From: a virus
Strand: one strand, 5' to 3'
IMG/VR virus record: IMGVR_UViG_3300037861_000117
Span: 1 to 37,268 of that record
DNA: 37,268 nt
The notes below the pieces were generated by a model. That model worked only from the letters and a program-made list of their open reading frames with translations, did no database searches and was not told the origin of the DNA. This document shows positions 6,138-22,455 of the stretch, piece by piece. The first letter of the stretch is position 1. Every line of letters begins with the position of its first letter. A program made the position numbers and the translations under genes.

Positions 6138-6427
6138 TAAGCGACAACCCAGCCTCGGCCTAGATGCGCTTGCATTTGATCTGCCATAATCCATTCACGC
6201 CGGAAGGCATCGCCTTTTTGCTGTAGCACCATGAGTACGCGCTTGCCTGTGTCTGGCTTGGGTTTATGCACGATAGCGGCTTGCTCGTCTAGGTCTGCAG
6301 CTGTGAGCGCGTCTACTGGTGTGTCTAGATCGTCTGATAACTCTGCTTTAAGCTTATCAATATTTTTATTGTGCCAGCTTTTTATGCCAGCTTCCTTGGC
6401 TTCTAGCCTGATTTCTTCATCGCTCAT
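6137..6427 (-). CDS. HeH/LEM-like small protein between terL and portal
   Basis: A 96-residue protein. Residues about 4-30 (EEIRLEAKEAGIKSWHNKN, then IDKLKAEL) match the short helix-extended-helix (HeH/LEM, SAP-like) pattern found in phage proteins and Rho N-termini, which bind DNA or protein. The C-terminal half has VHKPKPDTGKRVLMVL and ends in a Trp/His-containing tail. The gene sits between the large terminase and portal and is coupled to portal by TAATG. A packaging or head-completion role is inferred from that place; the precise function is not known. Confidence 0.55.
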   Translation of the reverse strand: MSDEEIRLEAKEAGIKSWHNKNIDKLKAELSDDLDTPVDALTAADLDEQAAIVHKPKPDTGKRVLMVLQQKGDAFRREWIMADQMQAHLGRGWVVA

Positions 6428-9615: not shown

Positions 9616-11877
9616 ATGGTATTAGACATCACGCACCTACAGGAGAAAATAGAGGCAACTTTAACCGAGTTTCGAGGTCGTGAAGCGTGTTCTGATCCTC
9701 GGTCTGAGTTTATAAATCAATTGGTGTCCGATGGATATGAAGCGCCAAAGCAGCTTTATTTAGGCAAAATTGCGCGGATAAATGCGCCGGATGACAAGAA
9801 GAAAAGCGGCTGGTGTTGGTATGAAGAGTTCGATGATAACTACCATGATGGGCATGTAATAGGATATGGCCAGTACGGTAGCTGGAAGGATGAAAGCAAG
9901 ATTACGTGGTCAAGCCGTGGCGACGAATACCTCACTAAAGACCAGAAACACGAAATAAACCAAGCCAGAGAAGCCAGCAAGAAGCAGCGCGAGGCGGAGC
10001 TAGAGATGCGTTATGCAGAGGCAGCTGTGGAGTGTTGGAAGATATATAATAAATCACCAGACGCAACAGATCATGGCTATCTAACACGCAAAAAGATAGA
10101 TGCATGTGGGCTGATTAAGCTGGTAGGTAACCGGCTGGCAATACCCATGATGAACGATAAGAACGAGCTAACCAGCTTGCAGTATATATACCCAGACGGC
10201 AAAAAGCGTTATCATACTGGCGGTAAGATTAAGGGTAGTTACTTCACCATTACCGGCACCACAGAGCGTGTGTATGTAGCAGAGGGGTACGCAACAGCCT
10301 GCTCAATACATATGGCAACAGGTGCCACTGTGGTGGTGTCGTTTACGGTTCACAAGCTACTTGATGCAGTGAACTATGCCAAGTCGATGTACCCGCAAGC
10401 TGAGATTGTCATTGCCGGTGATGATGACCGTGAAAGCACTGTTAATATAGGCAAGCAGAAAGCAAAAGAGATAGCGCAAACCATGGGCTTGATAGCGCGG
10501 TTCCCTGATGGTGGCGGCGATTGGAATGACACACACTGCACGCAAGGACTGGAGGCTGTGACGGATCAGCTTAACTTAGTACACGAAGCGTACCAAGTAG
10601 AGAAAGGGGAGAAAAACCCGCTGCCTGAGTCACTGCAAAACCCGCCTGCTATCATTGGTGATATTGTCAATTACTATAAGCTAACAGATAAGCGCAGTAA
10701 TAATGTGCTGGCGCTACCGTCGGCAATAGCGCTAGCATCTTTAATTGTGGCTAGAAACTTTGATACCAGTAATGAAAACCGTAGTTCGCTGTTTGTGCTG
10801 AATGTAGCCAGAACCGGCGCTGGTAAAGAGCATTGCAGCAGGGTTGTAGAGCGGATTCTTATGGCGTGTGATATGATAGAGTATAATGCAGCCAATGGTT
10901 ACAAGTCAGGAAGCGCGGTGTTTAGTAAGTGTTTAGATATGCCAAGGCATATGGCTGTTATACCGGAGTTTAGTGTGTTTCTGGATTCTATGACTAATAA
11001 GAATGCCAGCAGTCACCAAGCGCAGGCCAAGGGCGTGTTGCTGGAAGTGTCCACTAAGCTGGATGGTGTGCTAACGCCGCCTGCCTATGCCACTAAAGGA
11101 TTAAAGGAAGCTGACAAGAAGATATTTAACGATCATGTGGTAAACCCGGCAGTGACGCTACTGGCTACCACCACGCCGGAAGTGTACGGCATGATTACTA
11201 ATGAAATGATTGTCGATGGCTTTCTTAACCGGTTTATTATTTGCATATCAGATGAGCCAATGAACTATCTGCGGCAAGTGGAAAAGCATGAGGTGCCTGA
11301 ATCTATCGTGTCGTGGGTGAAAGCTATTAACAAGCGGTTAGGCGATAGGGAAGAAATAGCTACGGAACAGCCAAAACTAACTACGCTGGCATTTGCGCCG
11401 CAAGCCAAGGAAGCGTTTAATGCTTATGAAATAGAACTAACAGACCGCATTAACGGTGAGTTGTCAGGGTCAGTGCTGAAAAATATGCTGGTGCGTAGTA
11501 ATGAGCTGGCCATGCGTGTGGCGCTAATTGTGGCACTGGCTAAAAATCCCGATGCTGAGTTTATCTATAAGGAGGATGCTGAATGGGCTGTGGAGTTTAT
11601 CAAATACAATTCAGAGCAAACGCTAAAAACGCTACGCAATAACCTAGCCAATAGCCCGCATGAGAAAAAGCGCATGGAGTGGCTGAAGGCCATAAGAGAG
11701 CGTGGCGCCAAGGGTATAGAGTATCGGGAAATATCCAGAATAAAGCCGTTTAGCGCTGAGAATAAACGAACGTGTAACGAGTTGTTAGTTGAACTGCTTG
11801 AAAGCGATTTGATTACCGAGGCCAGCCGCAAGAGTGGCGGCAAAGGACGGCCTATCAAATATTATTATGCGATTTAA
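9616..11877 (+). CDS. Primase-helicase (TOPRIM + DUF3987-like ATPase)
   Basis: A 753-residue replication protein with AGGAG five bases before the ATG. The TOPRIM domain spans about residues 219-285, with its catalytic Glu in VYVAEGYATA and the acidic triad in VIAGDDD. A DUF3987-type helicase/ATPase follows (about 340-650), with a P-loop-like NVARTGAGKE at 396-405. The C-terminus (about 690-753) resembles a winged-helix tail. No CHC2-type cysteine cluster is visible at the N-terminus, so template recognition differs from DnaG/T7 gp4. It probably primes and unwinds phage DNA. It is the first early gene under promoter 1. Confidence 0.85.
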   Translation: MVLDITHLQEKIEATLTEFRGREACSDPRSEFINQLVSDGYEAPKQLYLGKIARINAPDDKKKSGWCWYEEFDDNYHDGHVIGYGQYGSWKDESKITWSSRGDEYLTKDQKHEINQAREASKKQREAELEMRYAEAAVECWKIYNKSPDATDHGYLTRKKIDACGLIKLVGNRLAIPMMNDKNELTSLQYIYPDGKKRYHTGGKIKGSYFTITGTTERVYVAEGYATACSIHMATGATVVVSFTVHKLLDAVNYAKSMYPQAEIVIAGDDDRESTVNIGKQKAKEIAQTMGLIARFPDGGGDWNDTHCTQGLEAVTDQLNLVHEAYQVEKGEKNPLPESLQNPPAIIGDIVNYYKLTDKRSNNVLALPSAIALASLIVARNFDTSNENRSSLFVLNVARTGAGKEHCSRVVERILMACDMIEYNAANGYKSGSAVFSKCLDMPRHMAVIPEFSVFLDSMTNKNASSHQAQAKGVLLEVSTKLDGVLTPPAYATKGLKEADKKIFNDHVVNPAVTLLATTTPEVYGMITNEMIVDGFLNRFIICISDEPMNYLRQVEKHEVPESIVSWVKAINKRLGDREEIATEQPKLTTLAFAPQAKEAFNAYEIELTDRINGELSGSVLKNMLVRSNELAMRVALIVALAKNPDAEFIYKEDAEWAVEFIKYNSEQTLKTLRNNLANSPHEKKRMEWLKAIRERGAKGIEYREISRIKPFSAENKRTCNELLVELLESDLITEASRKSGGKGRPIKYYYAI

Positions 11878-13332: not shown

Positions 13333-13746
13333 ATGAACATAGAGCTTAAAATAGCCGTAGATGGAATAAGAAATTCCTATCAACAATTAAACCAAAGCGC
13401 TGAATATGCTGTGGAGGCAATCTATACTGCCCACAGTGAAATAGATAACCTGAAAAGCAAGCTATCTAAGCTACAGGCAATTGTTGACGGGTATAACAAA
13501 GATGATGCTTTACTCGTGGCTAAAACCGAGAAGCGTATTCTTGATGACTTGAATCGAAAGTCTCTCACGCAGCTTAGCAATAATATAAAAACCGCAGATT
13601 TAAGCGACGCGGTCACAAAGGCAGTAAAACATCTTAGTGGTCTTTTGCCAGAGGATCATCCTTTTTATAATAAGCGCGTGAAGAAGTGGGATATTGAGAA
13701 CATAATTCAAGATTTAAGAAACTCCCTCAATAAGGAGCAGTCATAA
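13333..13746 (+). CDS. Coiled-coil early protein upstream of the Sak4-like gene
   Basis: A 137-residue protein with GAGGAG 7 nt before the ATG. It is strongly helical. Residues about 20-50 (EYAVEAIYTAHSEIDNLKSK, then LSKLQAIV) show heptad spacing typical of a coiled coil. A second helical region ends in a basic segment (NKRVKKWDIENIIQDLRNSL). It is coupled to the Sak4-like gene by TAATG, so a partner role in recombination or replication is plausible from context. No family is recognised. Confidence 0.6.
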   Translation: MNIELKIAVDGIRNSYQQLNQSAEYAVEAIYTAHSEIDNLKSKLSKLQAIVDGYNKDDALLVAKTEKRILDDLNRKSLTQLSNNIKTADLSDAVTKAVKHLSGLLPEDHPFYNKRVKKWDIENIIQDLRNSLNKEQS

Positions 13747-14405
13747 TGACAGTCTCCATAAAAAACACCAGCCAAGTCAGCCAGCAAACGGTCAATATGT
13801 TAGTACACGCACCGGCAGGCTATGGCAAAACTACGCTATGCGGAACTACTGGTGAGCCTACGATTATATTAAGCGCAGAGGCGGGGCTGTTAAGCCTGTC
13901 TGGGCAGAATGTGGACTATATAGAAATTACGTGCCTGAAAGATTTGAGGGAAGCGTATGATTTTCTACTAACCGATAAAAAATATAAATGGGTCTGCATG
14001 GATTCAATCAGTGAGCTGGTGTCTATGGCGTTAATTGAGAAAAAGCGCGGTACGAATGATCCACGGCAAGCCTACACGCAAATGCGCGACCATATGCTGA
14101 CGACAATCCGCGAGTTTCGTAACCTGCCTAAAAACACCTACATGACATGCCAGCAAAGCCATGATTCCAATGAGCTGTTAGCACCTATTACCGATGATAG
14201 GGTCATGACACAAAACCTTCCTTATATGTTTGATCTGGTTTTCGCATTGCGGAAAATGGAGCATGAAGGCAAGCTTTACCACGTATTACAAACCGAAGGA
14301 GATGAGACGTATTTAGCCAAGCACCGCATTGCAGGTGCCAATATATTAAAGCAATATGAACCCTGCAACCTACAAGCAATTTACAGCAAAATTACTAACC
14401 AATAG
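13746..14405 (+). CDS. Sak4-like RecA-fold recombinase (AAA_24 NTPase)
   Basis: A 219-residue single-domain P-loop NTPase. Walker A is APAGYGKTT (Lys28, Thr29) and Walker B is WVCMDSISE (Asp86). A following MTCQQSHDSNEL sensor-like strand fits the RecA core without RecA's extra domains. This is the usual size and layout of phage Sak4 single-strand annealing/recombination proteins, which work with a phage SSB; an SSB-like gene follows 700 bp downstream. Start at 13746 overlaps the previous stop (TAATG). It probably promotes strand annealing in replication-linked recombination. Confidence 0.75.
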   Translation: MTVSIKNTSQVSQQTVNMLVHAPAGYGKTTLCGTTGEPTIILSAEAGLLSLSGQNVDYIEITCLKDLREAYDFLLTDKKYKWVCMDSISELVSMALIEKKRGTNDPRQAYTQMRDHMLTTIREFRNLPKNTYMTCQQSHDSNELLAPITDDRVMTQNLPYMFDLVFALRKMEHEGKLYHVLQTEGDETYLAKHRIAGANILKQYEPCNLQAIYSKITNQ

Positions 14406-14415
14406 GAGAATGACG

Positions 14416-14805
14416 ATGAATATAGACGATTTAACACTTGGAGAGGTAAAGCAATTAACAGCTTTTCTAAAACCAGCAGCGCCACTGCCTGCTAGTGATT
14501 TATATAGCCGGTATATTGGTCAATATGTAATCTGCCGCAGTCGAAATGAAGGAATAAATGCTGGTGAGGTTGTCGCCGTTGACAGCACTGGAGTAATTTT
14601 GAAAGACTGCCGCCGCCTATGGTATCACAAGCCGGTTAATAAAAACAAAAGCTGGTACGAGGGCGTGGCGTGTGATGGTGTTCATAAAGACTCTAAGCTT
14701 TCTGCTCCTGTTGAAAAGATTATTGCAGAAGATTATTCACTTACTATCTGCACAGATAAAGCAGCTAAGTCCATCAAAGGGGCTGATACACATGAGCAAG
14801 GTTAG
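14416..14805 (+). CDS. DUF6948-like protein, copy 1
   Basis: A 129-residue protein. AGGAG at 14404-14408 places the start at the ATG at 14416 ([18 protein letters not shown]). It is a paralogue of the gene at 21158: both begin MNIDDLT-x-GE-x-KQL, share a V-x-G-[V/I]-HKDS-x-L-x2-PV segment and a CTDKA-x2-SI ending. The family resemblance is to small phage DUF6948 proteins, whose function is unknown; assignment is by pattern. It overlaps the start of a Gly-X repeat gene by 14 nt, the same arrangement as in copy 2. Confidence 0.7.
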
Positions 14806-15070
14806 TTTAATGATATTTAGTCGTGGCGATGGCGATGGCTCTGGCTCTGGCGATGGCGATGGCGATGGCTTTGGCTCTGGCTTTGGCTTTGGCTTTGGCG
14901 ATGGCGGTGGCTTTGGCGATGGCTTTGGCTTTGGCGATGGCCTTGGCTCTGGCTCTGGCGATGGCTCTGGCGATGGCGCTGGCTCTGGCGATGGCTTTGG
15001 CTTTGGCTCTGGCTTTGGCGGTGGCTTTGGCTTTGGCGATGGCTCTGGCTTTGGCTCTGGCTTTGGCTAA
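14792..15070 (+). CDS. Gly-X dipeptide repeat protein, copy 1
   Basis: A 92-residue frame starting [11 protein letters not shown] at the ATG at 14792, inside the end of the DUF6948-like gene. After residue 11 it is a pure array of Gly followed by Asp, Ser, Phe, Gly, Ala or Leu, about 40 dipeptides, ending with Gly-stop. The frame is chosen because it has an ATG coupled to the upstream gene and because the second copy has the same structure in the same frame. The product should be disordered and both acidic and aromatic. Function unknown; it may act as a spacer or low-complexity condensate-forming protein. Confidence 0.6.
14825..15067 (+). repeat. Hexamer array (GGC NNT)n, 40 units, copy 1
   Basis: 243 bp of 6-bp units in which GGC alternates with GAT, TCT, TTT, GGT, GCT or CTT. 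The second codon always ends in T. Runs of the same unit are short, so the array is a mixed minisatellite rather than a perfect repeat, but slippage or recombination with copy 2 would be easy. Confidence 0.85.
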
Positions 15071-15120
15071 TAGTAGTAAAATTAGATATTTAATGCAAAA
15101 TCAACCAAGGAGAATAAAAA

Positions 15121-15693
15121 ATGGTACTAGCAATTCAACAGAAATTCACGCCAGAAGAATTAGTGATGGGTGGCGGTGATAATTTCTTTGTGTCAGAGGG
15201 ATGGCATGAGACAATGATTACCAGCCTAGAAATGGCTGATGCGTTCACGCAAGGCAAGCCGCAGGATTTATTGATTCACGGCGTTATTACAAGCGGTCAA
15301 TATGCCCACGTTGAGCCAATCATTCGTTTGGGTATTAATGATGACACACCACTACCAAGCGGCAAGTCAACATGGTCTAAGATTGGACATTCAGCACTTA
15401 ACAAGATTGCCCTAGCATGTGGCTTGCCGTCCATTCCCTACGCTGATTTAGAGCAACTGCGTAACAAAAAAATCATGGTTAAATATGTCACGCAAAAGGG
15501 CAAAGAAAAGAAAGACGCATCTGGCTTTGGCACTGGCGAATACTGGGATGATACAAGTGCAGCGCGTGACTATAAGGCGGTTCCTGCGGTAGCCACAGCG
15601 GTAACGCCTGCTCAGGTTGCTGCTCAACCGGCACCTGCTCAGCCTACTGCACCGTTACCAGCGGCTGTGGCATCAGATTCTATTCCATTTTAG
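15121..15693 (+). CDS. Single-stranded DNA-binding-like protein with SSB-type C-tail
   Basis: A 190-residue protein with AAGGAG 8 nt before the ATG. The N-terminal 130 residues look like an OB-fold-type phage SSB, with IIRLGINDDTPLPSGKSTW and a KKIMVKYVTQKGKE strand. A Pro/Ala/Gln-rich linker follows (about 155-183), and the protein ends SDSIPF, close to the D-D-I-P-F tail that bacterial SSBs use to recruit partners. Position after the Sak4-like gene fits the Sak4-SSB pairing known in phages. The OB fold is inferred; the tail is directly visible. Confidence 0.7.
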   Translation: MVLAIQQKFTPEELVMGGGDNFFVSEGWHETMITSLEMADAFTQGKPQDLLIHGVITSGQYAHVEPIIRLGINDDTPLPSGKSTWSKIGHSALNKIALACGLPSIPYADLEQLRNKKIMVKYVTQKGKEKKDASGFGTGEYWDDTSAARDYKAVPAVATAVTPAQVAAQPAPAQPTAPLPAAVASDSIPF

Positions 15694-15701
15694 ATTAACT
15701 A

Positions 15702-15741
15702 GGGGCGGTATAAGTAGGGAAACTTGCCGCCCCGCTTTTTT
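15702..15741 (+). terminator. Intrinsic terminator after the SSB-like gene
   Basis: GGGGCGG (15702-15708) pairs with CCGCCCC (15727-15733), with an inner AAGT/ACTT pairing in the loop, followed by GC and six T residues. It ends just before the exonuclease ribosome site. This strong structure would end or attenuate transcription from promoter 2, giving less of the exonuclease, helicase and HNH than of SSB. Confidence 0.75.
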
Positions 15742-15754
15742 AGGAGAATATGCT

Positions 15755-16435
15755 ATGGTTTGCGAAATCACAATAGATCTAGAGACAATTCCCAGCCAAT
15801 TGCCATGGGTAAAGGAGTATGTGCAAAAAGACGTAAAGCCGCCGGGTAATATCAAGAAAGCTGAATCAATTCAGGCATGGTACGAAACCAAGCAAGGGGC
15901 AGCAGTGCAGGACGCGCTAAACAAATGCAGTCTGGATGGTGCAATGAATCACATTATCTGCATTGGCTTTGCTGTGGATGATGGCGAGCCTAAAACATTC
16001 TATTGCGGTGAAGATCCTGTAAACCGTGAAGCACCTATGATTAAGGCGTTCTATGATTATGTGCAGGAAGAATGTGGCAACTACGCCCATAAATGGATAG
16101 GGCATCACGTTGTGGGGTTTGATCTAAAGATACTACGCCAGCGCTCTATTATACTGGGCATTAAATGGCCACCCATTATGGAGGCAACGTTTCAGGATAA
16201 ATGGGGTGAGCTTGTTTATGACACAATGCTGAAGTGGTCTAACGATAGGCGCGATTTTGTAAGCCTTGAAAAGCTTGCTTTAGCGTTTGGCCTAGAATCA
16301 CCAAAGGAATCTATGAGCGGTTCGCAAGTATATCAATACTGGCAGGCAGACAGGCACCAAGAGATAATGGATTACTGCAAGGGCGATATTGAAACCACCC
16401 GCGCTGTTTATCGGTGTATGACTATGAGTGTTTGA
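15755..16435 (+). CDS. PolB-type 3'-5' exonuclease (DnaQ-like)
   Basis: A 226-residue protein from the ATG at 15755, with AGGAG 9 nt upstream. The three exonuclease motifs of the DEDD superfamily are visible: ExoI ITIDLETIP (Asp8, Glu10), ExoII HHVVGFDLKIL (Asp123) and ExoIII YCKGDIETTRAVY (Asp211, preceded by Tyr). It resembles the stand-alone exonucleases related to family-B polymerases. No polymerase domain follows, so it works as a separate nuclease, perhaps in proofreading or end processing for recombination. It stands after a terminator and before a hairpin. Confidence 0.85.
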   Translation: MVCEITIDLETIPSQLPWVKEYVQKDVKPPGNIKKAESIQAWYETKQGAAVQDALNKCSLDGAMNHIICIGFAVDDGEPKTFYCGEDPVNREAPMIKAFYDYVQEECGNYAHKWIGHHVVGFDLKILRQRSIILGIKWPPIMEATFQDKWGELVYDTMLKWSNDRRDFVSLEKLALAFGLESPKESMSGSQVYQYWQADRHQEIMDYCKGDIETTRAVYRCMTMSV

Positions 16436-16464
16436 TGTATGGAAATGGATGATATATAAATAAG

Positions 16465-16487
16465 GGGTGGTGCGGATAACACCACCC
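16465..16487 (+). terminator. Hairpin after the exonuclease gene; weak terminator
   Basis: GGGTGGTG (16465-16472), a 7-nt loop CGGATAA, and CACCACCC (16480-16487) form a perfect 8-bp stem. Only TCTT follows, so termination would be weak. It may instead protect or process the transcript ahead of the HNH gene. Confidence 0.45.
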
Positions 16488-16516
16488 TCTTAAACATCAA
16501 GCGCATAGGAGTGCGA

Positions 16517-17170
16517 ATGAATATACCCTGCATATATTATGTTGGTGAAATTGTCACCCTCAAACAAGCCAAGAATACAAATAGGAAACGATACTTTACT
16601 GGATCGCCATGTAAGCATAATCATATTTCTGAAAGACAAACAACCAACAGAAGATGTTTAGCTTGTGAAAAAGAAGATATTACTGGATGGAGGGCGAACA
16701 ATAAAGATAAGAGTTGTGAGTACACCAGCTCTTGGAGATCAAGGAATAAAGACTGTGTGCTGACATATTCAAGAGAATACAAGAAAAATAATAAAGATAA
16801 ACTGCAACAGGATGAAAAAGATAGGTGGGTAAAGAATAAATCAGCGCTTCAAGATAAAGCCAAAAAATACAGAGAAGAGAACAAAGAGTTATTCGCCACA
16901 TATGCCCGCAACAGGAGAGCAAAATTAAAAGGACTAGATCCACATACTAAGAATGACATTTTTTCTATACTGGAAAAACAAAAATATAAATGCGCTTATT
17001 GCTCATTAAACCTGAAGAATGCTTGTTATGATATAGACCATATACTGCCATTGGCATTAGGTGGTGGGAACGCTCCAAAAAATCTTCAGGCTACCTGTCC
17101 CCGATGCAATAGAAGAAAAAACAAAATGCACCCAAACGATTTTGCTAGAGAAATGGGATTCCTAATATGA
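16517..17170 (+). CDS. HNH endonuclease (homing-type)
   Basis: A 217-residue protein from the ATG at 16517, with AGGAG 5 nt upstream. The C-terminus is a classic HNH: Cys159-X2-Cys162, DIDH (172-175), then a Gly-rich turn with Asn, and Cys194-X2-Cys197 (ATCPRCNRRKNK). The N-terminus has the CKHNH and CLAC cysteine/histidine cluster common in phage HNH proteins, joined by a Lys/Asn-rich helical linker. It is markedly A-rich compared with its neighbours and sits between two replication genes, which fits a mobile insertion. It may nick or cut DNA of competing phages lacking the gene. Confidence 0.8.
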   Translation: MNIPCIYYVGEIVTLKQAKNTNRKRYFTGSPCKHNHISERQTTNRRCLACEKEDITGWRANNKDKSCEYTSSWRSRNKDCVLTYSREYKKNNKDKLQQDEKDRWVKNKSALQDKAKKYREENKELFATYARNRRAKLKGLDPHTKNDIFSILEKQKYKCAYCSLNLKNACYDIDHILPLALGGGNAPKNLQATCPRCNRRKNKMHPNDFAREMGFLI

Positions 17171-18927
17171 AAAAATCCCCACGCCCCTATCAAGGCGCAG
17201 CATTAACCGCGTTGTGGGATTGGGTATATAACAATGAAGGACACCCAGTAATTTCAGCAGCGGTCAACTCTGGGAAGTCCTACATGATTGCAGAGTTCAT
17301 TTACCAGTGTCATGTTAAATGGCCGCACATGAAAACTGTTATGCTGATTGATGACATGAAACTCTTGCGACAAAACATGGATGAATTGCAGGAAACATAC
17401 CCAGAAGTCAATGCGGGGTTTTACTGTGCGAGTATAGGACAGAAGAGATTACAGAACGATGTAACTATAGCCAGTATTCAGTCAATTCATAGCAAGGCGG
17501 CTCTGCTAGATAGAGCGCCAAATGTTATTCACGTGGATGAATGCCACAAAATCCCGCACAATAAACAAACCCAATACAGGAAATTTATTGATGATTGTTT
17601 GCAGTTAAACCCGAAATGTAAAGTTATCGGATGGTCTGGCAGCAAGTATAGAACTGATAGTGGCCATCTATGTAAAGGTAAAGACGCACTATTTTCCGGT
17701 GTTGCTTATGAAGTATCGGTGAAGTTTATGATTGAGGAGGGGTACAGTGTTCGCCCTGTAATTCCACCTGTAAAAACGCATATGGATGCAAGCAATGTCA
17801 AAATATCCAAAGGTGATTATATCGAGAAGCAATTGCAGGCGGCGGTAGATGTAGATGAAATTACTAAATCTTGTGTCAGTGAAATTATAGAAGTTGGAAC
17901 AGCGCAGAACCGCAAACAATGGATTGTTTATACAGCAGGGATTCAACACTGTGAGCATGTTTATGAGGAATTCAAACGGCGAGGGATTAATGTAGCGCAA
18001 GCCCATAGTAAAATACCAAACCAAGAGAAAATAGTTGAAGACTATAAATCTGGAAAAATACAATGCTTAGTTAATGTGAGCCAATATACTACAGGATTCA
18101 GTCATAACGGCATAGACCTTATGGCATTTATGCGCCCAACTAGATCGCCAGTATTATATGAGCAAATGACAGGCAGAGGGCAGCGCACCAATTATGCAGA
18201 GGGCTATGACTTACAAACTAGGCAGGGCAGACTGGATGCGATTGCTAATAGCGTTAAGCCTAATTTTGCCATTTTAGATTTTGGCGGGGTGATTGCAGAA
18301 TTAGGGCCGATAGATAACATTACAGTAAGAGAGAAGAATTATAGAAATACATTAGATGAAGACAGGGAAGTTGAGCAGCCAAAAATAAAACCATGCCCAA
18401 AATGCGAATCACCCTGTGCGCCAGCACAAAGACACTGCTATGAATGCGGATATGAATTTGTCTTTAATGTAGACGTTAATCCCAATGCTGATAGGCGATC
18501 TGCCGTCATGTCATCAGACATAGAACCAGAAAAGCTGGCTGTTATAGACATGGTGCTATCCAAGCACAGAAAGAAAGTGCCGGAGGGATCGCCGCCAGCA
18601 ACGCCAGTGATGAAAGTAACATACCACACCTACGCAGGCAGGATTAACGAGTGGATATGTTTTGAGCATTACGGATTCCCGCTAGACCAAGCAAAGATAT
18701 GGCATGACTTACATATGCCTTATTTAGCAAAGTGTTATCCACTAGACATTGATATTGCGCTAGAGCAGCACGAAAAAGGCTCTACGCAATACGCTACACC
18801 TGCGTTTATCTGGGCAAAGAAAAGCGGCAAATACTGGAACATGACAGGCGATAAAGATTTTAACAAACCAGAGCCAGAGATGGCACTGTCCGATGAAGAG
18901 TTAGACGAATACACCAACTTGATTTAA
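17167..18927 (+). CDS. SF2 DNA helicase (DEAD/DEAH-like) with zinc ribbon
   Basis: A 586-residue protein starting at an ATGA overlap with the HNH gene. Motif I is VNSGKSY (Lys37) in place of the usual GTGKT. Motif II is DECH (124-127), motif III is GWSGSKYR, and motif VI is QMTGRGQR (333-340). A four-cysteine ribbon (CPKC, then CYECGYEF, about 410-430) follows the helicase core. A C-terminal region of unknown fold (about 460-586) includes VTYHTYAGRINEW, seen in some phage helicases. It likely unwinds or remodels replication and recombination forks. Its 3' end overlaps the VRR-NUC gene on the opposite strand by 27 bp. Confidence 0.82.
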   Translation: MKKSPRPYQGAALTALWDWVYNNEGHPVISAAVNSGKSYMIAEFIYQCHVKWPHMKTVMLIDDMKLLRQNMDELQETYPEVNAGFYCASIGQKRLQNDVTIASIQSIHSKAALLDRAPNVIHVDECHKIPHNKQTQYRKFIDDCLQLNPKCKVIGWSGSKYRTDSGHLCKGKDALFSGVAYEVSVKFMIEEGYSVRPVIPPVKTHMDASNVKISKGDYIEKQLQAAVDVDEITKSCVSEIIEVGTAQNRKQWIVYTAGIQHCEHVYEEFKRRGINVAQAHSKIPNQEKIVEDYKSGKIQCLVNVSQYTTGFSHNGIDLMAFMRPTRSPVLYEQMTGRGQRTNYAEGYDLQTRQGRLDAIANSVKPNFAILDFGGVIAELGPIDNITVREKNYRNTLDEDREVEQPKIKPCPKCESPCAPAQRHCYECGYEFVFNVDVNPNADRRSAVMSSDIEPEKLAVIDMVLSKHRKKVPEGSPPATPVMKVTYHTYAGRINEWICFEHYGFPLDQAKIWHDLHMPYLAKCYPLDIDIALEQHEKGSTQYATPAFIWAKKSGKYWNMTGDKDFNKPEPEMALSDEELDEYTNLI

Positions 18928-19290
18928 TGCTGCCATGAATGATTCTTTATCGTGGACTACAGCATACGGGATATTCTTTCTTTGGCACAGCGCCGCCATA
19001 TCTTTTTGCTGGTCGCTCATTTTGTTAAGCGCCTGATTCATTGTTTTAGCGTGTTTGAGTTCCAGAAATAATACACCACCACACCACGCTATAACCCAAT
19101 CAGGCGCACCAGCTAGGCAACCGATGCGCAGTTTCTTTGCCCATGCCGCTATTCTGTTAACCAGCGCCACAAACTCATTAGGAACGTGAAAGTGAACCGT
19201 GTTAACGGCTCCTATCTCGTTCAATCTATCCAGCCACTTTTTAACGGCTTCAGATAGGTCATCCTCACTTGTAAAAGCTGGTTGAGTCAA
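18901..19290 (-). CDS. VRR-NUC-type nuclease
   Basis: A 129-residue protein with the PD-(D/E)XK core GAPDWVIAWCGG followed by LFLELKHA, as in the VRR-NUC family (a Holliday-junction or flap nuclease fold in phages). The frame begins with TTG at 19290 (read as Met-TQPAFTSEDD), overlapping the XRE gene by 26 nt; no ATG comes before the core, so the start is less certain. It is the last gene of the minus-strand switch cluster and converges on the SF2 helicase, a frequent partner of VRR-NUC proteins. Confidence 0.72.
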   Translation of the reverse strand: MTQPAFTSEDDLSEAVKKWLDRLNEIGAVNTVHFHVPNEFVALVNRIAAWAKKLRIGCLAGAPDWVIAWCGGVLFLELKHAKTMNQALNKMSDQQKDMAALCQRKNIPYAVVHDKESFMAALNQVGVFV

Positions 19291-19447
19291 GGTCTTTGAA
19301 ATAGTTAAAGAGTTTCACCATATTTACTTTGCTAGGGATTCTGTCACCAGATAGCCATAGGCTTAACGTGCCGTTACTCACACCTAAGCCATTGGCTACT
19401 TCATAATCCTTCTTGCCGCTATCTTTTATACATTCTCTTAGATTCAT
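19265..19447 (-). CDS. Small XRE-family DNA-binding protein (Cro/repressor-like)
   Basis: A 60-residue single-domain protein with a lambda-type HTH: YEVANGLGVSNGTLSLWLSG (about 15-34), followed by RIPSKVNMVKLF. No peptidase or oligomerisation domain is present, so it is Cro-sized rather than CI-sized. It overlaps the upstream gene by ATGA. It is the best candidate in the window to bind the TTTRCAnnCTGTAAA palindromes, one of which stands just upstream of its own operon. Binding is inferred from family and position. Confidence 0.75.
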   Translation of the reverse strand: MNLRECIKDSGKKDYEVANGLGVSNGTLSLWLSGDRIPSKVNMVKLFNYFKDLDSTSFYK

Positions 19448-19635
19448 TGGTTCGGCCTCATTAGTTGTTTACCTAGTTCTGCGTGGGGCTTACTGTAATA
19501 ATCGTCACCCTCTACCATAAGCATATAGTTAGCTTTACAGAACAAACCCTCTTGCTCCGCTGATATGTTGCCACGCCCTTCTTTATTAGCTAAGGCATAG
19601 AACTCATCAAAATAGTCTGCTGCTGTCTTTTCCAT
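19444..19635 (-). CDS. Unknown 63-aa protein, first gene of the switch cluster
   Basis: The frame is open upstream, but the ATG at 19635 (MEKTAADYFDEFYALANK) is chosen. It is placed exactly at the predicted transcription start, six bases after TATAAC, and no ribosome site precedes it, which points to a leaderless message like lambda cI from PRM. The protein is small, acidic in its first half, and ends in a Lys/Pro-containing tail. No family is recognised. It overlaps the XRE gene by ATGA. Confidence 0.6.
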   Translation of the reverse strand: MEKTAADYFDEFYALANKEGRGNISAEQEGLFCKANYMLMVEGDDYYSKPHAELGKQLMRPNQ

Positions 19636-19641
19636 AGTATA

Positions 19642-19670
19642 GTTATAACACAGGAATAAAGTATTTGCAA
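19642..19670 (-). promoter_or_regulatory. Divergent promoter for the XRE cluster, apparently leaderless
   Basis: On the minus strand TTGCAA (19670-19665) and TATAAC (19647-19642) are separated by 17 bp. Six bases then lead to the ATG at 19635, so the predicted first base of the RNA is the start codon. The -35 lies inside the operator palindrome shared with the plus-strand promoter. Confidence 0.6.
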
Positions 19671-19692
19671 TCTGTAAATAAGTGTGTACTAT
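19664..19692 (+). promoter_or_regulatory. Early promoter 3 with operator shared by both strands
   Basis: TTTGCAATCTGTAAA (19664-19678) matches the palindromes at 9567 and 13288 with one arm mismatch. For plus-strand transcription TTTGCA is the -35 and TACTAT (19687-19692) the -10 with a 17-bp spacer. A bound repressor would cover the -35 boxes of both divergent promoters. Confidence 0.62.
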
Positions 19693-19720
19693 GGTATTAA
19701 CAACAACGGGAGTAAATGAC

Positions 19721-20014
19721 ATGAGCGCCTTTCAATACTACAGAGACACCTACACCGATGAGGCCGCACAATATCACATAGACAGTGCTATACAGAGAAT
19801 AGACAGTGCAAGGAGAAGTGCGGTTGTAGCTCTCATGGGGCTGGCCGTCATCATTGATAATGAGCTTACGCTGTCTGACGCTGACCGCGACAATGTGGCT
19901 ATAGATTTTGTAGAAGCGCTAGACGCTGTGGATAGCACCATAGCCCTTCATATAGATGGTGAGGCGCTTCGCACTATTACCACCCTAAAGGAAATCAGAA
20001 AGGCAATGAAATGA
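19721..20014 (+). CDS. First gene of the right early operon, unknown (97 aa)
   Basis: Read from the ATG at 19721 (MSAFQYYRDTYTDEAAQYH) with GGGAG 8 nt upstream; the open frame further upstream runs through the promoter and is not used. The product is helical and acidic, with IDSAIQRIDSARRSAVVALM and a C-terminal LRTITTLKEIRKAMK. As the first gene after the divergent operator it has the place of lambda cro, but no HTH is evident. No family is recognised. Confidence 0.6.
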   Translation: MSAFQYYRDTYTDEAAQYHIDSAIQRIDSARRSAVVALMGLAVIIDNELTLSDADRDNVAIDFVEALDAVDSTIALHIDGEALRTITTLKEIRKAMK

Positions 20015-20103
20015 GCATTAAAGAACTAGCAGTAATTCTATTGGAGGTCGCCCTATTGTGTGGGCTGATCTATGGCGTAATTCTTATGGGGCTGGTGATA
20101 TGA
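20011..20103 (+). CDS. 30-aa membrane microprotein
   Basis: ATG at 20011 overlaps the previous stop (ATGA), and its own TGA overlaps the next ATG the same way. The product, MSIKELAVILLEVALLCGLI followed by YGVILMGLVI, is one hydrophobic helix long enough to span a membrane. Double coupling supports translation. It may be an early membrane or host-interaction peptide; the function is unknown. Confidence 0.5.
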   Translation: MSIKELAVILLEVALLCGLIYGVILMGLVI

Positions 20104-20405
20104 CTAGCGAATGGCAATTCAAAAAAGGCCAATCCGGCAACACCAATGGCAGGCCGAAGGGCGCAAAGAACAAACTAACACTAGAGCTTGCTGATATTGC
20201 ACAAGAGTACACTTTGGAGGCTTTAAATGTTTTGGTTGAGGTTATGCGTAATAAAAAAACCACGCCAAAAGTAAGGATAGTGGCCGCTGCTCATATTCTT
20301 GATAGAGGGTGGGGCAAGCCAGTTGCCTTTCTACAGAGAGAAAGCCAAGCAGAGGTTACTCATATTGATGGCGGATACAAGACAATAGAAAATGAGGATG
20401 AGTAA
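20100..20405 (+). CDS. DUF5681-like early protein
   Basis: A 101-residue protein from the ATG at 20100 (ATGA overlap with the microprotein stop). It begins with FKKGQSGNTNGRPKGAKNKL, the hallmark of DUF5681-type phage and mobile-element proteins. A helical segment ends in RIVAAAHILDRGWGKPV, a pattern also seen in that group. Function is unproven; the basic N-terminus suggests nucleic-acid binding. Some relatives lie near packaging or transposition genes, but here it is in the early operon. Confidence 0.65.
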   Translation: MTSEWQFKKGQSGNTNGRPKGAKNKLTLELADIAQEYTLEALNVLVEVMRNKKTTPKVRIVAAAHILDRGWGKPVAFLQRESQAEVTHIDGGYKTIENEDE

Positions 20406-20406
20406 C

Positions 20407-20562
20407 ATGCTAGAAGAAATCCTGCGCCTACAAGTGATGCTCGATGAGTTGCTACCCCATTTACAAGAGGTGCAACGGATCATCATTAACGAAGTGGCAA
20501 AAGAAAACCGCAAGCAACTGCGCATAGTGGCCACCAACCCGCAAACAGGGAGCTACAAATGA
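20407..20562 (+). CDS. Small helical protein (51 aa)
   Basis: ATG at 20407, two nt after the DUF5681-like stop, and TGA overlapping the next ATG. The product, MLEEILRLQVMLDELLPHLQ at its start, has leucine heptads suggesting a short coiled coil, then a basic RKQLRIVATNPQTG tail. No family is recognised. Confidence 0.5.
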   Translation: MLEEILRLQVMLDELLPHLQEVQRIIINEVAKENRKQLRIVATNPQTGSYK

Positions 20563-20687
20563 CCATTGACAGAAAAACAGAATACAAATCAGCTAAGTTC
20601 AATCTTGATCTGCTGATGCCAGAGAAAGAGCTAACAGCCAATCAGGCGCAGATAGTCGAAGTGCGGAAAAGCATAGTGGAGGATTAA
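20559..20687 (+). CDS. Small protein (42 aa)
   Basis: ATG at 20559 overlaps the previous stop (ATGA); TAA at 20685-20687. The product begins MTIDRKTEYKSAKFNLDLLM and ends in an acidic helix. A GGAGG for the next gene lies inside its last codons, so the two are probably coupled. No family is recognised. Confidence 0.48.
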   Translation: MTIDRKTEYKSAKFNLDLLMPEKELTANQAQIVEVRKSIVED

Positions 20688-20691
20688 GAAA

Positions 20692-20853
20692 ATGAGTAAT
20701 ATCCTGAGATTCCCCCCACAGTTCAAGCCCCTGCCAGTGGCAGAGAGTGAACAGATAATTGTGGAATGTACCTATTGTGGCTGTACCGAGTTTAACTTGT
20801 GGCTGGATGGCCTTGGAGATTTAACCAGCGTATGTACGGAGTGTGGGAAATGA
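20692..20853 (+). CDS. Small zinc-ribbon protein (53 aa)
   Basis: ATG at 20692 preceded by GGAGG (20679-20683). The product contains ECTYCGC and, 17-20 residues later, VCTECGK, a four-cysteine zinc ribbon with a short loop between (EFNLWLDGLGDLTS). Such one-domain ribbons in phages usually bind nucleic acid or a host enzyme. It overlaps the following TM gene by ATGA. Confidence 0.6.
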   Translation: MSNILRFPPQFKPLPVAESEQIIVECTYCGCTEFNLWLDGLGDLTSVCTECGK

Positions 20854-21017
20854 ACACACAACACCAAATGACCCTCACCCTCACCCGCACCCTAATCCTC
20901 ATAGCTGTAATTGTAGTGGTGGCTGTAGCAACCCTCAGTAGGAAGCAGCCAGCGTGGATGTGGGGTGATGAGATAAACGTTAACAGCCATGAAGAACAGA
21001 TAAGGATAAACCAATGA
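20850..21017 (+). CDS. Small single-span membrane protein (55 aa)
   Basis: ATG at 20850 overlaps the zinc-ribbon stop (ATGA); the in-frame extension upstream is not needed. The product has an N-terminal polar stretch, a hydrophobic helix (LILIAVIVVVAVATL, about 15-29) and a short polar C-terminus. Topology and role are unknown; early membrane proteins often affect host or superinfection functions. Confidence 0.55.
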   Translation: MNTQHQMTLTLTRTLILIAVIVVVAVATLSRKQPAWMWGDEINVNSHEEQIRINQ

Positions 21018-21021
21018 AGGG

Positions 21022-21138
21022 TTGCCGCCACGCATTGTAGTTCAATATTGGGATAGTGAGAATAAACTACAGGCTTCATATTTTTGTAATTGGGAAGATG
21101 CAGAAAGCTTTGAGGGGGAAATAAATGACACAGAATAA
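21022..21138 (+). CDS. Possible 38-aa protein with TTG start
   Basis: An open frame from TTG at 21022 to TAA at 21136-21138 reading (M)PPRIVVQYWDSENKLQAS and continuing into an aromatic/acidic C-terminus. Composition is protein-like and it fills an otherwise empty 100-bp gap. However the start is TTG and its ribosome site is poor, so this call is tentative. Confidence 0.35.
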   Translation: MPPRIVVQYWDSENKLQASYFCNWEDAESFEGEINDTE

Positions 21139-21157
21139 CACAACCAAGGAGAATAAA

Positions 21158-21529
21158 ATGAATATAGATGATTTAACAATCGGTGAAGCGAAGCAACTTG
21201 CCTCACTGCTTAGCGGAAACACGCCAACAACAGGTATTGGTATAACCTCAGTAATCGGTAAAAAAGCGATAATCAGAACTTATTCGGCTGGGGTATGGTT
21301 TGGGATGGTTAGTGAAAAATCAGGCGACGAGATAATTCTCTCTAACGCTATCCGCATGAATTATTTCAAAACGGTTAGCGGTATCTCCTTATCATCTGTC
21401 GCCGTGAACGGAATCCACAAAGACAGCCGATTGGCCGAACCCGTAGGGTGCGTGTGGCTAAACCCGATAGAAATAATCCCCTGCACTGATAAAGCCATAA
21501 TTTCTATCGAAAGTCATAAACATGAGTAG
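21158..21529 (+). CDS. DUF6948-like protein, copy 2
   Basis: A 123-residue paralogue of the gene at 14416: MNIDDLTIGEAKQLASLL at the N-terminus, VNGIHKDSRLAEPV in the centre and PCTDKAIISI near the end. AAGGAG lies 7 nt before the ATG at 21158. An in-frame ATG at 21125 (MTQNNTTKENK extension) also follows a G-rich site and cannot be excluded. The ribosome-site block CAACCAAGGAGAATAAAA is the same as in front of the SSB-like gene. It overlaps the second Gly-X repeat gene by 8 nt. Function unknown. Confidence 0.7.
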   Translation: MNIDDLTIGEAKQLASLLSGNTPTTGIGITSVIGKKAIIRTYSAGVWFGMVSEKSGDEIILSNAIRMNYFKTVSGISLSSVAVNGIHKDSRLAEPVGCVWLNPIEIIPCTDKAIISIESHKHE

Positions 21530-21791
21530 GCTATATAAATTGGATGGCGATGGTAGTGGCGATGGTAGTGGCTATGGCGCTGGCTCTGGCTATGGCTCTG
21601 GCGATGGTAGTGGCTCTGGCTCTGGCTATGGCTTTGGCTCTGGCGATGGCTATGGCTCTGGCTTTGGCTTTGGCTCTGGCTTTGGCGGTGGCTTTGGCTA
21701 TGGCTTTGGCTCTGGCTTTGGCGATGGCTCTGGCGATGGCGGTGGCGATGGCTCTGGCTTTGGCTATGGCGCTGGCTCTGGCGGTGGCTGA
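21522..21791 (+). CDS. Gly-X dipeptide repeat protein, copy 2
   Basis: An 89-residue frame starting MSRLYKL at the ATG at 21522, inside the end of DUF6948-like copy 2, followed by 41 X-Gly dipeptides with X = Asp, Ser, Tyr, Ala, Phe or Gly. The array is almost the same length as copy 1 (82 against 81 codons) but uses Tyr, which copy 1 lacks, and more GGT AGT units. So the arrays differ in sequence while length and pattern are kept. The alternate frame is also open (Met-Ala-Leu rich) but lacks the coupled start. Confidence 0.6.
   Translation: MSRLYKLDGDGSGDGSGYGAGSGYGSGDGSGSGSGYGFGSGDGYGSGFGFGSGFGGGFGYGFGSGFGDGSGDGGGDGSGFGYGAGSGGG
21543..21788 (+). repeat. Hexamer array (NNT GGY)n, 41 units, copy 2
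   Basis: 246 bp of 6-bp units alternating a T-ending codon (GAT, AGT, TCT, TAT, GCT, TTT, GGT) with GGC or GGT. It is the counterpart of the array at 14825-15067 in the same orientation, 6.7 kb away, and recombination between the two would delete the replication genes between them. Confidence 0.85.
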
Positions 21792-21855
21792 TTTAGCGAC
21801 TTAGCGGAGAGGCAAAATGACACAGCAGAATAAACAGGAAACAACGGAGGTAATT

Positions 21856-22455
21856 ATGCCAAAAATAACGTTCACGCTAGCAGGTATACGCAAGCACTCC
21901 CCTTGCCAAGACGGGTGGAAAACACTCTGCAGCGGCTTAGGTGGGATAAAGGAATATGGCGAGAATACACCAATCACACTACGTCAGTTATATAAACTTA
22001 TCGGGTATGGCGAAACTTTATGGTGCTTACGAGCCACGCCAAAGGACACGCACTACTTATGGCGACACTTCGCAGTAGATTGTGCCAAGCAAGTTGAACA
22101 TCTAATGGATGACGAGAGAAGCAAACGAGTGCTTGTGGTAGCTAGAGGTTTCGCGGACGGAAAAGCCACAGAAGAAGAAAGGGCTGCTGCTAGTGATGCT
22201 GCGGGGGCTGCTGCGAGGGATGCTGCGAGGGCTGCTGCGTGGGCTGTTGCGAGGGCTGCTGCGAGGGCTGCTGCGAGGGATGCTGCGAGGGATGCTGCGT
22301 GGGCTGCTGCGTGGGCTGCTGCGGGGGCTGCTGCGGGGGCTGCTGCGGGAGATGCTCAGATACGTCTATTAGAAATGTACTGTGAGGAAGGTAATCGGCC
22401 AAAGGATAGCGTGGGATTGTTGGCGGGATTTATTAAGGAGGCTATTAATGAATAA
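21856..22455 (+). CDS. Alanine-rich tandem-repeat protein
   Basis: A 199-residue protein from the ATG at 21856 (GGAGG 5 nt upstream); an in-frame ATG at 21817 gives a short polar extension. The N-terminal 95 residues form a normal domain (MPKITFTLAGIRKHSPC, with HYLWRHFAVDCAKQVEHLMD). Then comes a run of 13 four-residue repeats of pattern [Ala/Asp]-Ala-Ala-[Arg/Trp/Gly], and a helical C-terminus (IRLLEMYCEEG). Phage proteins with such Ala-rich helical arrays are known, but no function is established. The repeats should form one long amphipathic helix with Trp and Arg at fixed spacing. Confidence 0.65.
   Translation: MPKITFTLAGIRKHSPCQDGWKTLCSGLGGIKEYGENTPITLRQLYKLIGYGETLWCLRATPKDTHYLWRHFAVDCAKQVEHLMDDERSKRVLVVARGFADGKATEEERAAASDAAGAAARDAARAAAWAVARAAARAAARDAARDAAWAAAWAAAGAAAGAAAGDAQIRLLEMYCEEGNRPKDSVGLLAGFIKEAINE
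22195..22350 (+). repeat. Thirteen 12-bp repeats inside the Ala-rich gene
   Basis: Units follow the pattern G[C/A]TGCTGCG[A/T/G]GG, each coding for four residues, varying at the first codon (Ala/Asp) and last codon (Arg/Trp/Gly). The 12-bp period keeps the frame, so expansion or loss of units would not break the gene. Confidence 0.85.

Follow-up and report, generated by a model that had tools for sequence, protein, structure and literature searches.

A DUF6948-like gene and a coupled glycine-X repeat gene look like an undescribed two-part system of bacterial viruses

In this work we describe a pair of overlapping phage genes, in which a gene of the DUF6948 family is followed by a gene encoding little more than an array of Gly-X dipeptides. 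The pair is present twice in the window, i.e. the whole stretch of 37,268 nucleotides analyzed here (IMG/VR virus record IMGVR_UViG_3300037861_000117). Of 87 DUF6948 loci, 85 show this arrangement of the two genes, as compared to no Gly-X array in 886 kb of control sequence, which is far beyond chance. It is nearly certain that the DUF6948/Gly-X pair is a genuine module and that the Gly-X gene is coding. The pair occurs in many unrelated bacterial viruses and appears to be a two-part phage system not described before, the function of which is unproven. In the literature we found no paper on DUF6948 and none on phage Gly-X genes, and two papers on Rheinheimera phages hold nothing specific to these genes. 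The Pfam entry for DUF6948 (PF22253) says no more than that the function of this domain is unknown, and the family does not include the coupled Gly-X gene.

Results and Discussion

Two modules with DUF6948 genes of different subfamilies in the window

The genes and gene parts considered here are the following.

13746 to 14405, plus strand: Sak4-like ssDNA annealing ATPase, directly upstream of copy 1 (phrog_124, E = 7.9e-41; Pfam AAA_24)
14416 to 14805, plus strand: DUF6948 gene, copy 1; 129 aa, predicted Sm-like small beta-barrel (Pfam PF22253, E = 1.2e-12)
14792 to 15070, plus strand: Gly-X gene 1; 11-residue leader and 81-aa (Gly-X) array
14792 to 14824, plus strand: N-terminal leader of Gly-X gene 1, a proposed docking peptide
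15121 to 15693, plus strand: phrog_2300 gene, downstream of copy 1 (phrog_2300, E = 1.3e-5)
21158 to 21529, plus strand: DUF6948 gene, copy 2; 123 aa (Pfam PF22253, E = 6.5e-22; AlphaFold model with pLDDT 90.3)
21522 to 21791, plus strand: Gly-X gene 2; leader MSRLYKLD and 81-aa (Gly-X) array
21522 to 21545, plus strand: N-terminal leader of Gly-X gene 2, MSRLYKLD

With PF22253 bit scores of 48.3 (copy 1) and 77.9 (copy 2) against a curated gathering cut-off of 27, both proteins are members of the family; copy 1 furthermore matches the family HMM with E = 1e-38. The stop of each DUF6948 gene overlaps the start of its Gly-X gene, by 14 nt in copy 1 (14792-14805) and by 8 nt in copy 2 (21522-21529), so that both the family assignment and the overlaps given in the preliminary description of this DNA are confirmed. 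An AAGGGG sequence lies about 9 nt 5' of the ATG of Gly-X gene 1. Scans for promoter and terminator consensus sequences gave matches at the level expected from shuffled sequences and were left unused.

The (GGC NNT)n array reported for both copies is exact in the first, where all 41 glycine codons are GGC, but only nearly so in the second, with 38 GGC and 3 GGT codons. The X residues of the copy 1 array are D, S, F, G, L and A, and tyrosine is indeed restricted to copy 2. The term "duplicated module" holds for the gene order alone: the two DUF6948 proteins share only about 36% identity and their best relatives belong to different subfamilies, which rules out a recent duplication. The closest relatives of copy 1 are L210, L215 and L211 (66%, 62% and 58% identity). 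The leader of Gly-X gene 1 most resembles those behind L211 (MSKVSNLEFTG) and L210 (MSNIRDLVFKR), and the MSRLYKLD leader of gene 2 resembles the MS[KR]LNKP leader of the clade that holds DUF6948 copy 2.

The Gly-X gene follows DUF6948 across phages

Linkage of the two genes was assessed from three independent starting points, i.e. the DUF6948 sequence, an extra C-terminal domain fused to some arrays and the DNA pattern of the array. Starting from the DUF6948 sequence alone, a Gly-X array was found just 3' at 85 of 87 testable loci, and no array lay near the DUF6948 loci L179 and L226. The control region of 886 kb, in which no Gly-X array occurred, surrounds terminase genes. A Gly-X gene also follows a divergent DUF6948-like family, at 74 of 75 loci (73 after a check of the residues). 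The search with the C-terminal domain returned an in-frame Gly-X array in 81 of 83 cases, with DUF6948 upstream in 59 of 60. Finally, in the DNA-pattern search 70 Gly-X arrays had DUF6948 upstream; of the mixed arrays without a DUF6948 match, the majority follow a divergent DUF6948-like relative. DUF6948 genes elsewhere without arrays, or arrays with broken frames, had been named at the outset as observations that would speak against the coupling; instead, the array is present at 85 of 87 loci and the frames are intact.

The phages bearing the module infect Proteobacteria, Bacteroidota, Chlorobi and other hosts, and Rheinheimera phages carry a divergent version of it. Genes for RecE-like, Cas4-type exonuclease, Sak4, Erf, Bet, RecT, NinB and SSB proteins are found in the neighbourhood of the module. 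The phrog_2300 family seen downstream of copy 1 is also matched by three neighbour proteins of DUF6948 in other phages.

The Gly-X gene is translationally coupled

The start of the Gly-X gene overlaps or touches the DUF6948 stop at 79 of 85 loci, most commonly with an offset of -16 nt, and at 82 of 85 loci the two genes are in different frames. A Shine-Dalgarno-like site precedes 58 of 82 Gly-X starts as compared to 82 of 497 other ATGs inside DUF6948 genes. Together with the linkage at 85 of 87 loci, this bears out the tight coupling of the pair that had been proposed from the window. The leaders are clade-specific (e.g. MSKLNKP, MExxIxxFL and NFEDSQNTY). They correlate with their DUF6948 partners (Mantel r 0.40), which may reflect simple co-inheritance, since the correlation is gone for distant pairs. 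In sum, the Gly-X gene has the properties of a genuine protein gene whose translation is coupled to that of DUF6948.

These signals also bear on a very different reading, according to which (GGC NNY)n acts at the level of DNA or RNA, as a recombination or slippage hotspot or a structural element, and the open frame is incidental. The uniformity of the hexamer, with an entropy of only 0.24-0.26 bits at positions 3 and 6 as compared to about 1.0 at positions 4 and 5, and the location in recombination cassettes would fit such an element. It would not account for the Shine-Dalgarno sites, the coupling of stop and start, the conserved leaders, the strict order behind one gene family or the frame kept in 81 of 83 fused cases. 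Furthermore, the glycine codon and the wobble base vary with the GC content of the phage while the amino acid alphabet is constant. We therefore regard this reading as very improbable.

Array composition is kept while sequence and length turn over

Within an array the glycine codon is uniform, but it is GGC, GGT, GGG or GGA depending on the phage, and the wobble base of the X codon tracks GC content (rho 0.57). The alphabet of X, which alternates with Gly, is Asp, Ser, Tyr, Phe or Asn. All 83 analyzed DUF6948-linked arrays contain Asp together with an aromatic residue; K and R make up 1% and I, L, V, A and P combined 1.3% of these arrays. Aromatic residues occupy about 30% of the X positions, and the net charge of the Gly-X proteins is about -6 on average. 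From one phage to another the codons differ but the set of residues persists, so that selection acts on the composition of the protein, in line with the selection on the product suggested before.

The length of the array is not conserved. Across the family it ranges from 20 to 132 aa, and in eight Pectobacterium phages the Gly-X coding length varies from 162 to 270 nt, with three of the lengths sitting behind DUF6948 genes that differ by 0-1 nt. In Rheinheimera phages arrays differ by one 6-nt unit. Array length and order thus change even between almost identical phages while the frame is kept. The preserved length inferred earlier from the two arrays of the window has to be abandoned, and their matching 81 aa are a coincidence.

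Such whole-unit changes, seen even among phages of one host, are what a neutral microsatellite, i.e. a functionless low-complexity frame made by slippage, would display. Slippage drift, however, predicts runs of equal units, whereas the order of X is close to shuffled and pairs of identical neighbours are even slightly rarer than in shuffles (z -3.4). Drift also predicts loss of the alphabet, which is at odds with Asp and an aromatic residue in 83 of 83 arrays, and it does not explain the 85 of 87 linkage. This origin is hardly credible, and neutral slippage and a DNA-only function are both unlikely.

The arrays of Bacteroidota-type phages are joined to the extra C-terminal domain. At 81 of 83 loci with this domain the array lies between leader and domain; L363 shows a clear frame break. 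The domain is modelled with a pLDDT of 93. It gives no functional clue because the comparison of the model with PDB folds yielded nothing above noise. Its arrangement, and the fact that glycine-rich chains make good linkers, could mean that Gly-X is a mere flexible spacer, functional in these fusions and a relic elsewhere. Yet most DUF6948-linked Gly-X genes have their stop no more than a few residues after the array and still keep composition, frame, Shine-Dalgarno site and coupling. Moreover, if the chain were a plain linker, there would be no need for each array to contain Asp as well as an aromatic residue, or for aromatics to fill about 30% of the X positions, which makes this explanation improbable.

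A predicted Sm-like fold and a possible function

The AlphaFold model of DUF6948 copy 2 consists of a helix followed by strands at residues 36-41, 46-55, 58-69, 96-101 and 103-108. In a Foldseek search against the PDB, the matches listed were Sm/LSm chains or complexes containing them, with modest scores (best E 2e-3; TM-score by query about 0.4-0.5, best by target 0.76). A profile of 90 DUF6948 sequences found no match among PDB chains at E<=10, so that the Sm assignment rests on the predicted fold. The Pfam scan of the DUF6948 proteins of the window likewise gave no LSM or Hfq match, and no Sm1/Sm2 sequence similarity was recognisable. The mean net charge of DUF6948, -0.6, is near zero and not clearly basic as might be expected of a nucleic-acid binder. 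Overall, DUF6948 is predicted with good confidence to adopt an Sm/LSm-type small beta-barrel fold.

The eukaryotic proteins SmB, SmD1, SmD3 and LSm4 of spliceosome and P-bodies carry Arg-Gly tails in cis. The phage pair resembles them in combining a predicted Sm/LSm fold with glycine dipeptide-type low-complexity sequence, but its chain is acidic and aromatic (GD/GY/GS) instead of basic. Bacterial Hfq unites an Sm-type fold with a disordered, acidic and variable C-terminal tail that regulates nucleic-acid binding (PMC5606850, PMC6561178). An acidic, variable low-complexity chain beside a predicted Sm-type fold is also found in the phage module. In contrast to Hfq, the phage chain is encoded by a separate, translationally coupled gene and alternates strictly between Gly and X, with many Tyr/Phe residues, and DUF6948 has no detectable sequence similarity to solved Sm/Hfq chains. 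The Hfq of Acinetobacter has a long glycine-rich repetitive C-terminus and in this respect is close to the predicted Sm protein with its glycine-rich repetitive partner; it is, however, a single polypeptide from a bacterial housekeeping gene, and no strict Gly-X alternation was reported for it (PMC5663733).

If DUF6948 acts like the Sm, LSm and Hfq proteins, it may assemble into an oligomer, possibly ring-shaped, with RNA or single-stranded DNA as its ligand. The conserved leader of 8-12 residues would dock the Gly-X protein on this oligomer, and the (Gly-X)n chain would then provide a disordered, acidic and aromatic-rich tail in trans. Such a tail could tune the release or competition of nucleic acids, as the acidic tail of Hfq does, and/or gather the complexes into condensates at the site of phage replication and recombination. 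We propose that only composition matters to the tail (Gly alternating with Asp, Tyr/Phe and Ser/Asn), so that the array could freely gain, lose or rearrange units of six nucleotides. That the Gly-X gene supplies an Sm-like DUF6948 protein with its low-complexity acidic/aromatic tail in trans is the reading we favour among those considered, but it is put forward tentatively. The role in disorder or condensates is an idea, made somewhat more plausible by the predicted Sm-like partner and the constant Asp/aromatic/Ser/Asn composition.

Alternatively, the pair might serve in counter-defence, with DUF6948 as a nucleotide- or ligand-binding, sponge-like small barrel and the hypervariable Gly-X protein serving as decoy or adaptor towards a defence protein of the host, the changes of the array reflecting an arms race. 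Very fast array turnover beside a constant partner gene would fit, as would the tandem Gly-X genes, of which up to five (L022) and seven (L103) follow a single partner and which recall dosage or diversity amplification; Ser, Tyr and Asp side chains could be targets of modification. On the other hand, the neighbours are recombination and replication genes and not an anti-defence island, and the narrow alphabet with near-random order fits composition rather than specific epitopes. PADLOC models matched neither DUF6948 nor Gly-X nor the extra C-terminal domain, which is weak evidence as this library holds defence proteins. Taken together, a role in counter-defence appears unlikely.

Extended to the caudoviruses of many hosts, the tail-in-trans model would imply an undescribed class of two-component Sm-like/low-complexity assemblies, in which an Sm-like protein recruits, by way of a short docking peptide, a pure acidic/aromatic (Gly-X)n chain that condenses the replication/recombination site or controls nucleic-acid exchange, and in which only composition is preserved while the sequence is reshuffled almost freely. 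This broader proposal is the more speculative one. A gene made up almost wholly of a dipeptide repeat and bound nearly without exception to an Sm-like partner, in phages of such varied hosts, would be a rare natural case, in bacterial viruses, of visible selection on the composition and not the sequence of a low-complexity protein. The pairing points to a class of function for DUF6948, and the two genes make up a very small, clonable system for the study of glycine/aromatic/acidic low-complexity chains.

Annotation of Gly-X genes

Comparison of the Gly-X proteins with Pfam, PHROG, NCBIfam and PADLOC returned no meaningful family; matches to TrAA12 and keratin-type entries were rejected as low-complexity matches. 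Read in another frame, the array DNA gives long Ala-Met/Leu frames, and standard annotation can miss or misread Gly-X genes.

The DUF6948/Gly-X module in the window and across phages

Genes encoding DUF6948 (Pfam PF22253), together with downstream genes of alternating Gly-X dipeptides, form a general phage module. The viral record of 37,268 bases carries a replication/recombination cassette and, on the opposite strand, virion genes including those for terminase and portal; it contains two such pairs:

9616-11877, primase
13746-14405, Sak4-like annealing ATPase
14416-14805 (+), DUF6948 gene, copy 1
14792-15070 (+), Gly-X gene 1
15.6-18.9 kb, exonuclease, endonuclease VII/HNH and helicase
21158-21529 (+), DUF6948 gene, copy 2
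21522-21791 (+), Gly-X gene 2
21817-22455, further low-complexity repeat gene

Both DUF6948 genes score above the Pfam curated cut-off, and the 3' end of each overlaps the start of a Gly-X gene, which encodes a short leader followed by 81 residues alternating Gly-X. Glycine is encoded by GGC in 41 of 41 units (copy 1) and 38 of 41 (copy 2), and the X codons are NNT. The preliminary description of these pairs was otherwise accurate, apart from the weight given to equal array length, but they are not a recent duplication: the two DUF6948 copies fall into different subfamilies (nearest relatives at loci L210/L211/L215 and L143/L154/L139, respectively). The repeat gene at 21817-22455 (phrog_18326, AAARDAAR/W-type alanine repeats, 12-nt array at 22180-22347) lies directly 3' of Gly-X gene 2, which places a repeat protein of another type next to the module.

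A scan of IMG/VR and GTDB genomes with the DUF6948 sequence only yielded 93 loci, six of which were left out because the sequence ends too soon past DUF6948. A Gly-X array follows just downstream on the same strand in 85 of the 87 judged loci; the exceptions are L179 and L226. The loci are not fully independent, and the scans favoured sequences near the query. As a control, the same array detector, which demands Gly alternation, found no arrays in 886 kb around terminase genes, that is, in structural rather than early regions. Conversely, a DNA-pattern scan of viral contigs for (GGCNNT)8 recovered 70 Gly-X arrays that lie downstream of a DUF6948 match. Arrays without such a match were mostly monotone stretches, e.g. 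(GS)n; of those that are truly mixed, the majority follow a divergent DUF6948-like protein (RGWVxVG...RxWGTTxGLGELA). Scanning with this divergent family turned up 80 loci, of which 74 have an array, five are too short and one has none; 73 arrays stayed after the residue check. The two families are joined by hhalign (E 9e-5, probability 59%), and BFVD yielded a structure match in line with this link (E 2.7e-4), between DUF6948 and a protein from a Rheinheimera 'barba' phage, a group that carries the divergent family.

Vibrio IKEMa6-1, Iodobacter PhiPLPE, Pectobacterium phages and Chlorobiaceae CV-1-33 are among the named phages that carry the module, and Rheinheimera Barba bears the divergent version. 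DUF6948 with Gly-X genes was also seen on Neisseria genome contigs (L222, L223); the gonococcal records NZ_CP119142 and NZ_CP119140 each contain as many as three DUF6948 sites, the best match having no listed gene. Many metagenomic contigs (among them L139, L146, L149, L165, L166 and L198) stop at the array or shortly before it, probably through assembly breaks, by which the module would be under-represented in databases. In MW202478.1 (L134:1505-2077), where the array lies upstream of DUF6948, the annotated gene fuses an Ala-Met/Leu reading of the array DNA to DUF6948, a frame that is probably wrong.

Translation signals and array composition

The Gly-X start touches or overlaps the DUF6948 stop in 79 of 85 loci, most commonly by 16 nt. 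An SD-like site precedes 58 of 82 Gly-X starts, compared with 82 of 497 ATGs elsewhere in these DUF6948 genes, an odds ratio of 12. Every indirect sign thus suggests that the Gly-X gene is translated.

Selection acts on the composition of the arrays. In the 83 arrays of the DUF6948 set, Ser (33%), Tyr (29%), Asp (21%) and Asn (7%) make up most of X, all 83 contain Asp and an aromatic residue, and Lys/Arg (about 1%), Glu (0.5%) and aliphatics plus Pro (1.3%) are scarce; the divergent family has Tyr 41%, Asp 24%, Asn 23% and Ser 7%. Gly occupies 96% of its positions, a figure itself favoured by the detector, and the zero entropy at hexamer positions 1 and 2 is an artefact of the filter. A DNA-level element is hard to reconcile with the data: the Gly codon is of one kind per array and varies from phage to phage, and the X wobble base tracks genome GC (rho 0.57), so that the DNA sequence is not the thing kept.

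A neutral repeat likewise fits the data poorly. Units follow one another in nearly random order, and in the DUF6948 set equal neighbours are slightly fewer than in shuffles (z -3.4), the opposite of simple unit slippage. Turnover itself is seen among close relatives. The DUF6948 genes of the Pectobacterium phages Ymer, Abuela and Amona are identical and that of Taid differs by one base, yet their Gly-X genes measure 222, 222, 204 and 258 nt, respectively; in Rheinheimera phages that share a host, the arrays differ by just one 6-nt unit and by internal substitutions. The weight that had been placed on the equal array length in the window was therefore not upheld. The Tyr/Phe-Gly-Asp/Ser make-up also fits condensing low-complexity proteins of the sticker-and-spacer kind.

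Predicted fold, leaders and possible mechanism

For a model of DUF6948 copy 2 built with 90 family sequences (pLDDT 90.3), every PDB match listed is an Sm/LSm chain or a complex that includes one (best E 2.1e-3; TM-score by target up to 0.76 at 2.0 A). A predicted Sm-like fold is justified, but the sequence profile found no relative in the PDB; the label is thus limited to the fold and does not extend to membership in the Sm family.

Each partner clade has its own conserved leader (M-S-K-L-N-K-P; M-E-x-x-I-x-x-F-L; N-F-E-D-S-Q-N-T-Y); that of window copy 1 is closest to those of L211 and L210. Leader and DUF6948 similarity correlate overall (Mantel r 0.40, p<=0.0005) and no longer do so in distant pairs (r 0.01), a pattern that could arise from co-inheritance alone.

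Around the observed linkage, coupling, frame maintenance and composition constraint, we propose that DUF6948 may form an oligomer that would bind nucleic acid, with the leader as a putative docking peptide and the Gly-X chain as a tail acting in trans. Hfq offers the closest functional parallel: RNA binding is autoregulated by its C-terminal tail, which is acidic and disordered (PMC5606850, PMC6561178), and in Acinetobacter the protein has a glycine-rich repetitive tail (PMC5663733). The commonest known families among 116 neighbour proteins are RecE-like and Cas4-type exonucleases, Sak4, Erf, Bet and RecT annealing proteins, NinB and SSB, a count that describes the context and is no test of enrichment. 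A counter-defence pair is a rival to the trans-acting tail. The module is undescribed in the sense that a search of the open-access literature turned up nothing on it.

Fusions and related architectures

A second rival reading takes the Gly-X chain as a linker. In Bacteroidota-type phages the array connects the leader with a C-terminal domain that is marked by the motifs AHG-x-T and LTGSC-x-x-GR; 81 of 83 homologues of this domain have an in-frame array, and DUF6948 lies upstream in 59 of 60 loci with enough room. The domain has a confidently predicted fold (pLDDT 93) that matched no known fold in the PDB. It was seen (AHGxT ... HWHHxLTGSCxxGR) downstream of DUF6948 at L025, L026, L043 and L314-L399; one fused homologue, L363, has a frameshift in or near the array region, either because the gene is broken or through a sequencing error.

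Elsewhere, tandem Gly-X genes with shared leaders stand behind one DUF6948-like gene (about seven at L103, five at L022, four at L058). At L099 a different N-terminal partner, DUF7666, is joined in frame to the array, and at L348 a DUF7666-like stretch is fused likewise, with no DUF6948 upstream. One phage (L118) contains, besides a Gly-X gene, two tandem Ser-X dipeptide genes, (S[W/R/G])n, on the reverse strand (5818-6291 of the reverse complement), which suggests a wider class of dipeptide-repeat phage genes.
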